Source: a virus | DNA: 20,605 nt | Virus record (IMG/VR): IMGVR_UViG_3300047323_000388 | Location: 1 to 20,605 of that record | Strand: one strand, 5' to 3' | In this document: positions 176-8,335 of the stretch, piece after piece | How the letters are laid out: each line of letters opens with the position of its first letter | How positions within the stretch are numbered: the stretch's first letter is position 1 | Notes under the pieces: model-generated | The model's database searches: none | Seen by the model: only the letters and a program-made list of their open reading frames with translations | Told to the model about the DNA's origin: nothing | Made by a program: the position numbers and the translations under genes

Positions 176-207
176 CAAAAAAGCCACTAAAATTAATTAG
201 CGACTTT
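176..207 (-). terminator. Terminator after the GIY-YIG gene
   Basis: On the minus strand an 11-pair stem (207-197 with 190-180, two G-U pairs) closes a 6-base loop and runs into a T tract. It overlaps the last codons and stop of the homing endonuclease. It would separate that transcript from the terminase-like gene downstream. Confidence 0.75.
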
Positions 208-1305
208 CAAATCTTCTTTTTCTTCATTATTTAATTCTAAATAATCATCATAGTACATCCATTTTAATTTTGTTCCATTTTCTAATTTTCCGGAAGTCTT
301 TTGTGTTCCATTACAACACGCCCAAATTCCTGAATATCCTATTAAATAATATTCCATTGCTAATTTAATATTATTAAACACTTTACTATTATTTAAACAA
401 ATAACTTCTTCTTTTTGTTTTTTCTTTATGTTATATTTCCCACTATTATAATCTTCATAATAAGCCCAAGCATAACCATAAGCACTCTTTCTTTCTCTTC
501 TACATACATTTGATATTTCTCCTGATTTTGGTTTTTTATGAATTTTATTTTCTATTAACCATGTACAAGCTATTGTCATACTGTCAAATTCTTTTAAATA
601 TTCACCAGTATACTTATCAAACATAACTACTTTTTGTTTTCTATAACTATTTTCACTTATTTTTGATTTATGTTCTTCTGAAAACTCTCTACCTTTCATT
701 TTGTCTTTAATAGCATTAATAGATTCTTCTGAGTGATGTTTTCCTTTAAATCCTCCACCACCAGTTTTCTCTATCATTATCTTATTCATTTCAGCCAATC
801 GTTTAACTTCATTTTTATATTCTTCATTAGTATAATTGCTCCATCTATTTTTTGAAATTTCACTTAATAATTCCTTAGTTTCTTGGGTGTGTTCCTTACC
901 ATAAAAGGGGTTTAATTCTCCATACATACCAAACATAGGATTATTTTCTCCCATTACTCTTTCAGACATAATCTCCCTATATTCATCAGTTTTATAAGTT
1001 TGTCCTCCATCAGTAATATTATATCCATTTGGACAAATACTATTATATTGTTTTATATATTCTATTTCCCTTTCATCTAATTGAATATATGGTATATCAT
1101 CTTCAATTAAATCCATTTTAAAATTATCTACTCCATACTTTATCATCGCATTAGCTATTGCAGTATGTTTTCTTTTACTATCACATTTATGTTGTGACCA
1201 TCTTTCACTTAGTGTAGATATAGTTTGTCCTATATAAACCTTGTTATTTATTTTATTAATTATTATGTAAATTCTACCTAGTATATCTTGATTTTTCTTT
1301 AACAT
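193..1305 (-). CDS. GIY-YIG homing endonuclease with NUMOD repeats
   Basis: This 370-residue protein is a probable site-specific DNA endonuclease of the free-standing homing type. The GIY-YIG domain occupies about residues 10-100: IY at 12-13, YIG at 24-26, a likely catalytic Arg35 (TLSERW) and Glu80 (DERE), ending with the GYNITDGG block common in this family. Behind it come NUMOD3-like repeats (GENNPMFG, ELNPFYGKEH, GFKGKHHSEE, GREFSEEHK), known as DNA-contacting modules. After these come two NUMOD1-like segments (VVMFDKYTGEYLKEF near 228 and EVICLNNSKVF near 298). The start has AGAAGGA nine bases upstream. It is intact, followed by its own terminator, and sits next to a terminase-like gene, a common place for such elements. 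Whether it lies in an intron cannot be judged because the neighbour is cut off. Confidence 0.9.
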   Translation of the reverse strand: MLKKNQDILGRIYIIINKINNKVYIGQTISTLSERWSQHKCDSKRKHTAIANAMIKYGVDNFKMDLIEDDIPYIQLDEREIEYIKQYNSICPNGYNITDGGQTYKTDEYREIMSERVMGENNPMFGMYGELNPFYGKEHTQETKELLSEISKNRWSNYTNEEYKNEVKRLAEMNKIMIEKTGGGGFKGKHHSEESINAIKDKMKGREFSEEHKSKISENSYRKQKVVMFDKYTGEYLKEFDSMTIACTWLIENKIHKKPKSGEISNVCRRERKSAYGYAWAYYEDYNSGKYNIKKKQKEEVICLNNSKVFNNIKLAMEYYLIGYSGIWACCNGTQKTSGKLENGTKLKWMYYDDYLELNNEEKEDLKVAN

Positions 1306-2910: not shown

Positions 2911-3102
2911 ATAAATCATGTTATTTAAAGTTTCTTTAATTTCTTCTACTGCATTTTCGTAACCTTCATCTAATCCCATTTCATACGACTCAATAAGTTT
3001 CTTTCTAAGGGCAATATTAAAACCTTTGATATCACTTTGTTTTATTTCAGATAAAGTATCTAATAATCCTCCAAGTAAAACTTCTATTGGATCTTCCTCA
3101 AT
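2908..3102 (-). CDS. C-terminal extension read by -1 frameshift (or broken 3' part)
   Basis: A 64-codon open frame directly follows an A8 run (minus strand, 3109-3102) near the end of the 171-residue gene, shifted by -1. Its protein, beginning IEEDPIEVLLGGLLDTL and ending ETLNNMIY, has normal composition and codon use. It has no ATG near its start and no ribosome binding site, and a stop lies just before the A run in this frame. It is best explained as a continuation of the upstream gene through slippage on GAA-AAA-AAA, or as one gene broken by loss of one A. It ends at TAA overlapping the A-rich motif. Function unknown. Confidence 0.55.
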   Translation of the reverse strand: MEEDPIEVLLGGLLDTLSEIKQSDIKGFNIALRKKLIESYEMGLDEGYENAVEEIKETLNNMIY

Positions 3103-3635: not shown

Positions 3636-4010
3636 TTATAGCTGATTGTTTTCTTGAATTTCTTGTTGAATTTTAGCGATTTCTCTATTGTTATCACAAG
3701 TCATTTGATTCAATTGCATATTGTATTCTATATTTCTTTCATTTAAAATAATATCAATTGCAGAAGTTTTATCCACTCCAATATTTACTAATGTACTAAA
3801 TTGTCCTGCTAGAAAAGATATAGAATCTATTCCTGCTTGGAATTCTTGTGAATCTAATTCTAATTCTTGAATATTTTCAGTATTAACTTTAACATCTTTT
3901 GAATCCATTAATTGTTCAATAACATCAATTAATTCATCTTTAGATAAAGACTCTAATGATGTTTGATCTTCTTCCATATCTTCAACATTATTTAATTCTT
4001 CTTTACACAT
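3636..4010 (-). CDS. Acidic coiled-coil hypothetical protein, 124 aa
   Basis: The protein is not recognised. The first 50 residues are acidic (NNVEDMEEDQ, LSKDELIDVIEQL). A more hydrophobic middle (IDSISFLAGQFSTLVNIGV, about 60-80) follows, then a Gln/Asn-rich helix likely to form a coiled coil (NREIAKIQQEIQENNQL at the end). A GGTGAG site lies 5-6 bases before the ATG. The gene starts 19 bases after the ClpP-like gene, so the two are probably co-transcribed. That makes a partner or substrate-adaptor role conceivable, but nothing in the sequence proves it. Confidence 0.6.
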   Translation of the reverse strand: MCKEELNNVEDMEEDQTSLESLSKDELIDVIEQLMDSKDVKVNTENIQELELDSQEFQAGIDSISFLAGQFSTLVNIGVDKTSAIDIILNERNIEYNMQLNQMTCDNNREIAKIQQEIQENNQL

Positions 4011-4029: not shown

Positions 4030-4641
4030 TTATATTATGATTTCGTCAATTACATTTAAATCTAAAGCAGTAGTACTATCCATATAAAAATCTTTATTAC
4101 TTTTAGTATAGCTATTAAATTGTTCAGCAGTTATACTTGTCTTTTCTGTTATTAAATCAACAATTAAGTTATACCATCTATCACATTGTTCTCTATCATT
4201 TACAGTGTCTTGATAAGTTTCTTGACCATATTTAAATCTATTCCATTGATGGCACATTAAATCACTTCTCTTATATGCAAATCTTTTTGATCCACAAATT
4301 AAAATTTTAAATGCCATTGAATAAGCATAGCTTGTACAATATGTATGGATTTCTATTCCTTTGTTAATGTAATACTCCATTAAATCACAAAAATGCATTC
4401 CATCAACTAAACTTCCTCCGGGTGAAGCAATAATTAATTTTATCGGAGTTCTATCTTCTTGGTTTAGTGATAATTGTTTTTCTGCTAACTTTTTTAATTG
4501 TCTAGATAGAGTTATTATAAATTCTGTTGTTACTTCATCATCAATATATAATGTATTCTTGTTTTTGTAATCACCTAATTTAATTTCTTCAAGTAATCTA
4601 TTTACTGGTTGATAATATTGTCCACTCATAACTTTCACCAT
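4030..4641 (-). CDS. ClpP-like serine protease
   Basis: 203 residues, about the length of ClpP. The crotonase/ClpP fold signatures are present: KLIIASPGGSLVDGM with the oxyanion glycines at 75-76, the nucleophile Ser108 in AYSMAF (ClpP has A-S-M), and His131 in LMCHQW (ClpP has HQP). The third catalytic residue is less clear. The segment TKSNKDFYMDSTTALDLNVID aligns with the DTDRD..M region, but the first Asp of ClpP falls on a Lys or Ser, leaving Asp184 as a candidate. The start is either the ATG at 4641 (GGA four bases upstream) or Met5 (GGTGA six bases upstream). No Clp ATPase is in view, so it may act with the host ATPase, as a stand-alone peptidase, or in phage head maturation. It is followed by the 124-residue acidic gene. 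Confidence 0.85.
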   Translation of the reverse strand: MVKVMSGQYYQPVNRLLEEIKLGDYKNKNTLYIDDEVTTEFIITLSRQLKKLAEKQLSLNQEDRTPIKLIIASPGGSLVDGMHFCDLMEYYINKGIEIHTYCTSYAYSMAFKILICGSKRFAYKRSDLMCHQWNRFKYGQETYQDTVNDREQCDRWYNLIVDLITEKTSITAEQFNSYTKSNKDFYMDSTTALDLNVIDEIII

Positions 4642-6742: not shown

Positions 6743-8218
6743 TTACAAAATGAATTGAGAAGCAAATTTACTCACTCCTACAATTTTGGTTGTTTTATTT
6801 TTACCTTGTAAATATTCAGTTCCCTTTTCTATCATTTCAATTTTTCCTTCTTCTGTACAATGATGTATTAGAATTTTATTTGTATTAATTTGACTCCAGT
6901 ATTGAAAAATTTCTTCTTGTTGAATGTGACTCGAAAATGTTTTTTGAGTAATTACATCACAACTTTTAATCAATGTACTTCCATCAATTTTAATAGGTGT
7001 TCCTACTGGCTTAGTAACTAATTCATGAGATATAGAACCTTCTGCCCCATAATATCCCACAAAGCAAATTAAATCACCTGTAACTCCCATAAAGTTTTTA
7101 ACATAGTCACAACTACGTGTTTTAGGTTGAACGAATCCACTAGAACTTATGTAAATACCACATTCTCTTTTAGACAATATTCCTAAAGTACCTTTATACT
7201 CTCTATTATATCTAAAGTTCTTCCAAGATTTTACCCTTTCCCATTCTTCAAATTCATCATTTTTTAATATCTTACTATAAGTATCACATATAGTATTTGT
7301 TAATCGTCCATCAATGATTACAGGTATCTCATGAAACCATTCTTCATCTTTAAAAAACGAATTTATTAAAACTTGCAACTCTTGAGTACGTCCAAATGAA
7401 AAACTTGGAAAGAATATCCGATGTCCACTTTTTAAATATTTAGTTAAAGTTTCTTTTAATTCATTTCTTTCTTTTTCAACTAAATTCCTATCAAAACATT
7501 TTTCAGAGTTTGAATAAGTTGCCTCAAAAACGTACATTGAAGCTTTTGGAATTATATCTCTCTTTTTTACAAAAGGTTTGTATTTTAAATTATAATCTGA
7601 TCCCAAATCACTAGTATAGACTAATGATTTGATGTTATTATTAGGCAATCTAAAAGTAAGTTTTAATTGTGTTCCTCCTAATACATGTCCTGAATTATAA
7701 AATTCATAACTTAACCAATCATCAAATTTATATACTTGATGTGTTTCAACAGTTTTTACTTTTTCTAACATTTTGTACATATCTAATTCAGTATATAAGT
7801 TTCTAGGTCTTTTCCCTTTTGCTTTTAAACCTTTTATTAAACAATCATGCAAATACACACTATCCTTTAATAGTTCCTTAGATATCATTGAACATTCTTC
7901 TGTAGTAATTATTTCTCCTTTGAATATATCTTGTCCAAATATAGGAGTGTTTCCAATATGGTCTACTCAGACGTGGGAGTGCATTAAAAACACTCCCGAA
8001 ATACCTCCTACTGGAATATTTTCAACCATTTTTTTATTTACTGAATATTCTATCTCTGGTTTTGATTCGCCTTGTATCATCCCACATTCTAAACAAATGC
8101 ATTTATGTTTAGAATTACCTATAGGATAGCTGACTAATAATGCCGATCCACAAATATCGTCTCTGCTTCCACCTACAAAACTTAAAATTATATCATTATC
8201 CTTATTTTTTTTGCTCAT
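6743..8218 (-). CDS. MBL/beta-CASP nuclease interrupted by in-frame UGA
   Basis: One frame encodes an enzyme of the RNase J/CPSF73 type, a metal-dependent ribonuclease. The first 83 codons end in LMHSHV, then UGA (7969-7967), and the same frame continues VDHIGNTPIFGQ to the stop at 6743. Deleting GUCUGA yields HSHVDHIG, exactly the HxHxDH metal motif. Downstream motifs are intact: NSGHVLGGTQL (His, motif 3), YTSDLG (Asp, motif 4), FEATYS (beta-CASP A), TFSSHIQQEE (B) and ILIHHCTEE (C). The second part alone has no good start: ATG 7888 lacks a ribosome binding site. Either the ribosome skips six bases between two Val codons, or the gene is a recent pseudogene. The ribosome binding site GGGAG before ATG 8218 lies in a stem. 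The neighbours are HU upstream and the 111-residue protein downstream. Confidence 0.8.
7944..7997 (-). other. Candidate recoding site: stop, two Val codons and nested stems
   Basis: On the minus strand GUC (7972-7970), UGA and GUA (7966-7964) follow each other. Immediately 5' is a G/C-rich 7-pair hairpin GGGAGTG/CACTCCC (7997-7991 with 7981-7975), whose 3' arm encodes the HSH of the active site. The same 5' arm can instead pair as GGAGTGTTT/AAACACTCC (7996-7988 with 7952-7944), nine pairs, placing the stop in the loop. GTCT/AGAC around the stop also forms a small stem. Confidence 0.5.
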
Positions 8219-8224
8219 AAGTAA

Positions 8225-8282
8225 GTCTCCCTCTATTATATATTATGTCTATTGACAAAGTGAATAATAGTCAAAGAGAGAC
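8225..8282 (-). promoter_or_regulatory. 5' leader hairpin sequestering the nuclease ribosome binding site
   Basis: In the minus-strand RNA GTCTCTCTTT (8282-8273) can pair with AGAGGGAGAC (8234-8225), ten pairs with two G-U. The second arm contains the ribosome binding site for the start at 8218. A smaller stem TTGAC/GTCAA lies inside as an alternative. This suggests translational control; no known riboswitch class is recognised. Confidence 0.45.
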
Positions 8283-8335
8283 TTAATATAAGTAAAACTC
8301 AATTAAATCTCTTTTGATATATCCATATTATTTAA

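Follow-up and report, generated by a model that had tools for sequence, protein, structure and literature searches.

To our knowledge, ribosomal bypassing has been studied well in a single phage case, gene 60 of bacteriophage T4. In this gene a stop lies right after the take-off codon, the landing codon specifies the same amino acid, and a 5' stem loop and a Shine-Dalgarno-like sequence are present; the stem loop is thought to be the motor, refolding behind the ribosome (PMC5009743, PMC11194080). In synthetic stop hops in E. coli, 9 nt arranged as codon-stop-codon yield a single amino acid and the frame is kept (Weiss et al. 1987, cited in PMC5009743). A bypass is also suspected in the terminase gene of Streptomyces phage Hau3, for which a 5' Shine-Dalgarno sequence has been proposed (PMC5009743). 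A 2016 review noted that cases taken for readthrough might include natural in-frame stop hops, with none known (PMC5009743), and we found no later claim of one in the open-access full-text literature. The in-frame stop hop has so far been reported for artificial constructs only.

The window analysed here, the full extent of a 20,605-base IMG/VR virus record, contains a nuclease gene that invites comparison with these systems. Like T4 gene 60, it is a phage gene in which a stop stands directly 3' of the putative take-off codon (GUC UGA, kept in a relative), with a landing codon that encodes the same residue, a predicted stem loop just 5' of take-off and a Shine-Dalgarno-like sequence. It differs from gene 60 in that the predicted gap is 6 nt and in frame instead of 50 nt, the codon pair is GUC/GUA instead of GGA/GGA, and no nascent-peptide signal is known for it. 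With the synthetic E. coli hops it shares the 9-nt in-frame layout, but those are artificial and use matched codons, whereas the window gene is natural, its surroundings are conserved and its two codons are synonymous. The Hau3 terminase is likewise a phage case with a short gap, predicted from sequence and with a proposed Shine-Dalgarno sequence 5' of the gap; there, however, a UUA codon is concerned, and here a UGA that lies in frame within an active site.

A nuclease gene interrupted within its catalytic motif

The gene, assigned by its frame and domain matches to the beta-CASP metallo-beta-lactamase (MBL) nucleases, and the codons at the interruption are:

6743-8218, minus strand: beta-CASP MBL nuclease gene, made up of ORF1 (codons 1-83), the UGA and ORF2 (codons 85-491)
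7970-7972, minus strand: GUC, proposed take-off codon; the related phage uses it for 4% of its Val codons
7967-7969, minus strand: in-frame UGA, read from the sequence and kept in the related phage
7964-7966, minus strand: GUA, proposed landing codon, from the sequence and comparison with the related phage

Read from 8218 to 6743, the gene translates as MSKKNKD...GVFLMHSHV-UGA-VDHIGNTP...FASQFIL, and the minus strand at the UGA is CAC TCC CAC GTC TGA GTA GAC CAT ATT GGA, which bears out the HSHV-UGA-VDHIG of an earlier sequence-only reading. Its claim that no frameshift is involved also holds, as both flanks share one frame, open for 83 codons upstream and 407 downstream. The UGA and one Val codon sit within the HxHxDH motif, which the window nuclease possesses only if these 6 nt are skipped; the skip restores the standard spacing, as that reading had proposed, and distant relatives lack exactly the two codons. 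Twelve such relatives at 24-30% identity (ten viral contigs and two phage records) carry HxHxDH or, in L067/L069, the variant HxxGHxDH, in each case without the two codons. When aligned with the window protein, 10 of the 12 have exactly two residues fewer at the UGA position.

The window protein matches the Pfam Beta-Casp domain (PF10996, E 3e-7, 31.4 bits against a cut-off of 27.7) and PHROG 36352 (E 2.7e-49), and the solved structures (PDB) nearest by sequence to its post-UGA part are YSH1, INTS11 and CPSF73 (E down to 1.9e-15). By these matches, the 407 codons 3' of the UGA encode a beta-CASP MBL nuclease, predicted to cut RNA. The beta-CASP domain and the similarity over the whole downstream part are common to it and to nucleases of the CPSF73, INTS11 and RNase J type; unlike in these, its catalytic motif is broken by the UGA and one codon. 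An antisense ORF of 118 codons (7773-8129, plus strand) runs across the UGA region and is open in both phages.

Scanning IMG/VR for the pattern HxHx-UGA-xDHxG returned 31 stretches: four are the gene described here, one is contig L021 and the rest lie outside MBL frames. L021 (40.5 kb, 27% GC) comes from an unrelated phage and carries another MBL family, reading ACC CAU AGG CAU CUU UGA CUA GAC CAU AUU GGU (HRHL-UGA-LDHIGG) in a single frame with 53 codons before the UGA and 197 after it, the later motifs being kept. The gene preceding it is read as RecT-like, annotated phage relatives of this MBL likewise follow a RecT gene, and its relatives have HxHxDH without the insert. In both pairs, GUC/GUA and CUU/CUA, the first two bases match, the third differs and the downstream codon ends in A. 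The UGA region of L021, a single contig, showed no hairpin comparable to that of the window. The same layout with UAG or UAA gave non-MBL chance matches only, and non-MBL matches were also all that came from searches with the UGA one codon earlier or with a relaxed UGA pattern, and from a scan of 84,980 prokaryote genomes for the layout.

Selection and RNA surroundings in a diverged relative

A separate scan of IMG/VR placed the same gene on four contigs of another phage (18-130 kb), with 91% DNA identity over 1558 nt, 139 nt differences, no indel and the same 6 nt, which marks the layout as more than a chance occurrence. G001 and G003 are two parts of this related phage and share 22 kb. The contigs are separate assemblies, for G003 and G004 carry two differences outside the insert and none within it. 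Only two alleles of the nuclease gene were found. Recurrence of the 6 bases among homologues, which the sequence-only reading had named as a check, is seen in the only close relatives, and the refuting outcome it had named, their absence from close relatives, did not occur.

Third codon positions hold 104 of the 139 changes, and the codon differences between window and related phage comprise 101 synonymous and 23 non-synonymous ones. Estimated by NG86, dS is 0.32 before and 0.59 after the UGA, and dN/dS is 0.088 and 0.043, respectively; the relaxed selection after a lesion that marks a pseudogene is not seen here. From the UGA to the first ATG (codons 85-110) there are 4 synonymous changes and 1 non-synonymous change (P ~0.016, assuming that three in four neutral changes are non-synonymous), and because of this ratio these codons are probably read in frame. 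In-frame translation of the region past the UGA is well supported by the comparison. The retained 6 nt, the downstream dN/dS of ~0.04 and the divergence of the two phages together indicate that both lineages have long kept the insert along with a selected downstream protein.

Comparison of the two alleles further shows constraint at the nucleotide level around the UGA, where the following elements lie:

7917-8038, minus strand: conserved block, gene nt 181-302, with 2 differences in 122 nt versus 9% in the gene
8003-8009, minus strand: internal AGGAGGU, Shine-Dalgarno-like, just 5' of the hairpin, from the sequence and comparison with the relative
7975-7997, minus strand: predicted RNA hairpin of 8 bp, GGGAGUGU-UUUUAAU-GCACUCCC, candidate 5' stem loop, unchanged in the relative
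7933-7972, minus strand: alternative downstream stem, GUCUGAGUA pairing with UAUUUGGAC, candidate take-off stem, both arms unchanged in the relative
8219-8300, minus strand: 5' untranslated region, all 82 nt identical in the two phages, z -4.3

The 28 unchanged codons 61-88, the longest such run in the gene, lie within the conserved block and span the UGA (shuffle test, p 0.002 for a run covering the UGA and 0.028 for one anywhere). Codons 74-90 form the gene's rarest-codon cluster (z -4.7; TCG 3%, GTG 8%, CAC 16%, TCC 3%, CAC 16%, GTC 4%, GAC 18%), and equally extreme 12-codon windows account for 0.04% among the related phage's genes. The predicted fold of the UGA region is stronger than that of dinucleotide shuffles (z -3.5) and of synonymous recodings (p 0.004). 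The hairpin ends 2 nt 5' of GUC (z -4.4 for a 36-nt piece), and its sequence is identical in both alleles and therefore without covariation support. The outer stem of a predicted three-way fold is disrupted by the changes at nt 267 and nt 273, which leaves two candidates, the inner hairpin and the stem GUCUGAGUA/UAUUUGGAC. No Rfam family or ribozyme matched within the window up to E 1. In the 5' untranslated region, an inverted repeat is predicted to pair with the gene's own ribosome-binding site, and hiding this site is possibly a second layer of nuclease control.

Alternative routes across the UGA

Readthrough by a near-cognate tRNA (Trp, Cys) or with selenocysteine would produce HSHV-X-V-DHIG, with two extra residues at the metal site. 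The conserved UGA and the selected downstream protein are consistent with it, and a second gene of the related phage looks like a case of readthrough or selenocysteine: in the clpP-like head protease gene (L083, minus strand from 4341; window counterpart 4030-4641), a UGA at 3967-3969 replaces a Cys (TGC) of the window protein directly before the His of SDLM-C-HQWNR, a single-codon replacement without insertion, with coding conserved on either side. This UGA could represent readthrough, selenocysteine or a nonsense change, and its region has no stable fold. The UGA of the MBL gene, however, is part of a two-codon insertion and is not aligned with a Cys of the homologues, on which ground a selenoprotein was rejected. 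None of the relatives examined has two extra residues between HxHx and DH, and such an addition would shift two metal ligands; other genes use UGA as an ordinary stop. We consider readthrough unlikely. A reassigned UGA was rejected, as in-frame UGA is not pervasive, and so was a suppressor tRNA: no such gene is present in ~220 kb of the related phage, in which only tRNA-Ser(GCT) was found. That tRNA stands at the end of a stretch of ~0.7 kb without clear genes (L083, 6280-6960, minus strand), which also gives a match to the drum RNA family below threshold (40.2 bits, cut-off 43).

The gene might instead be split, yielding an N-terminal peptide and a C-terminal polypeptide with its own start, which may assemble. 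Bacterial ribosomes commonly reinitiate past a stop, and selection acts on both parts. A normal start would nevertheless lose DHIG, there being no ATG, GTG or TTG from the UGA to codon 111; the sole nearby GGAG is lost in the relative through a change from GGA to GGT at codon 101, codons 85-110 are conserved as protein, and it would have to be a coincidence that the break falls exactly 6 nt from an intact motif. A split gene thus appears improbable, somewhat more so than readthrough.

The sequence-only reading had offered a fresh pseudogene by 6-bp insertion as its alternative. This is contradicted by the comparison and was rejected because the close relatives keep the 6 nt, purifying selection on them is strong, and both the hairpin and the block of rare codons are conserved. 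It was rejected together with a sequencing error also because the two diverged alleles and all five contigs agree at the insert, G003 and G004 among them, which differ elsewhere. An old pseudogene, or a strain-level nonsense change with residual conservation, would find a parallel in in-frame stops of other genes of the related phage. On L079, a UAA at 3001-3003 breaks a ligase-like gene (YKGN-UAA-VSVGSGYSDEQR), which looks like an ATP-dependent DNA ligase, and 0.8 kb on, a UAG at 3768-3770 interrupts a small ORF (GFLDF-UAG-VHENVLD); these stops may be nonsense changes or readthrough. We regard an old pseudogene as quite improbable, given the silent divergence of ~0.3-0.6 between two insert-carrying lineages, the low dN/dS past the stop and the lack of any frameshift in 1476 nt. 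Least plausible of all is that the 6 nt are cut out of RNA or DNA ahead of translation: the region is predicted to be structured and GUCUGAGUAGAC forms an inverted repeat, but Rfam gave no match, L021 has no such inverted repeat and we know of no mechanism that excises 6 nt. Frameshifting was rejected in both directions, as a +1 shift runs straight into UAG in the window gene and in the L021 gene, and the -1 frame never rejoins the gene frame.

The window also encodes a GIY-YIG homing endonuclease with a NUMOD3 motif (193-1305, minus strand). Bypassing of gene 60 in T4 is linked to a homing endonuclease.

A candidate stop hop in phage MBL nucleases

Among the ways across the UGA, only a 6-nt hop would keep the catalytic motif intact, because readthrough adds two residues, a +1 shift meets UAG and no usable start lies between the UGA and codon 111. 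A programmed in-frame 6-nt translational bypass ('stop hop') is in our view the best explanation, with a little better than an even chance of being correct; we infer the hop itself from the spacing, and the roles of the RNA elements, the tRNA and any regulation are putative. The +6 hop put forward by the sequence-only reading is strengthened by the kept 6 nt, the selection, the hairpin and rare codons and the second MBL family, but its codons are synonymous (GUC/GUA), not identical, and their unlike third base counts against a hop. The clpP UGA, the ligase UAA and the small-ORF UAG slightly weaken the argument that an in-frame stop here must be programmed, since they show that stops within this phage's genes are not unique to the hop layout.

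In the proposed stop hop, the ribosome would translate ORF1 up to GUC (codon 83) and pause within the rare-codon stretch with UGA in the A site. The peptidyl-tRNA-Val would release GUC and re-pair 6 nt downstream at GUA, and translation would resume in the same frame at GAC, so that the product reads HSHV-DHIG and is an active beta-CASP MBL nuclease. The hairpin just 5' of the take-off codon may push the ribosome forward as it refolds, like the 5' stem loop in gene 60 of T4, and the internal AGGAGGU perhaps adds to this push. Direction may come from a single tRNA-Val(UAC), with weak wobble on GUC and full pairing on GUA. Because ribosomes that do not hop would end with an inactive 83-aa peptide, the UGA would act as a gate on the active site.

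The broader proposal, to which we give slightly less than an even chance, is that a natural in-frame stop hop has arisen at least two times in phage MBL nucleases and been kept, each time inside the catalytic motif and gating the active enzyme. Gene callers split such genes in two. The locus offers a small element (~120 nt) that is directly testable in a reporter. If true, this would be the first in-frame stop hop from nature and would show bypassing at work as an enzyme gate: a translational safety catch on a nuclease, with only hopping ribosomes making the active enzyme.
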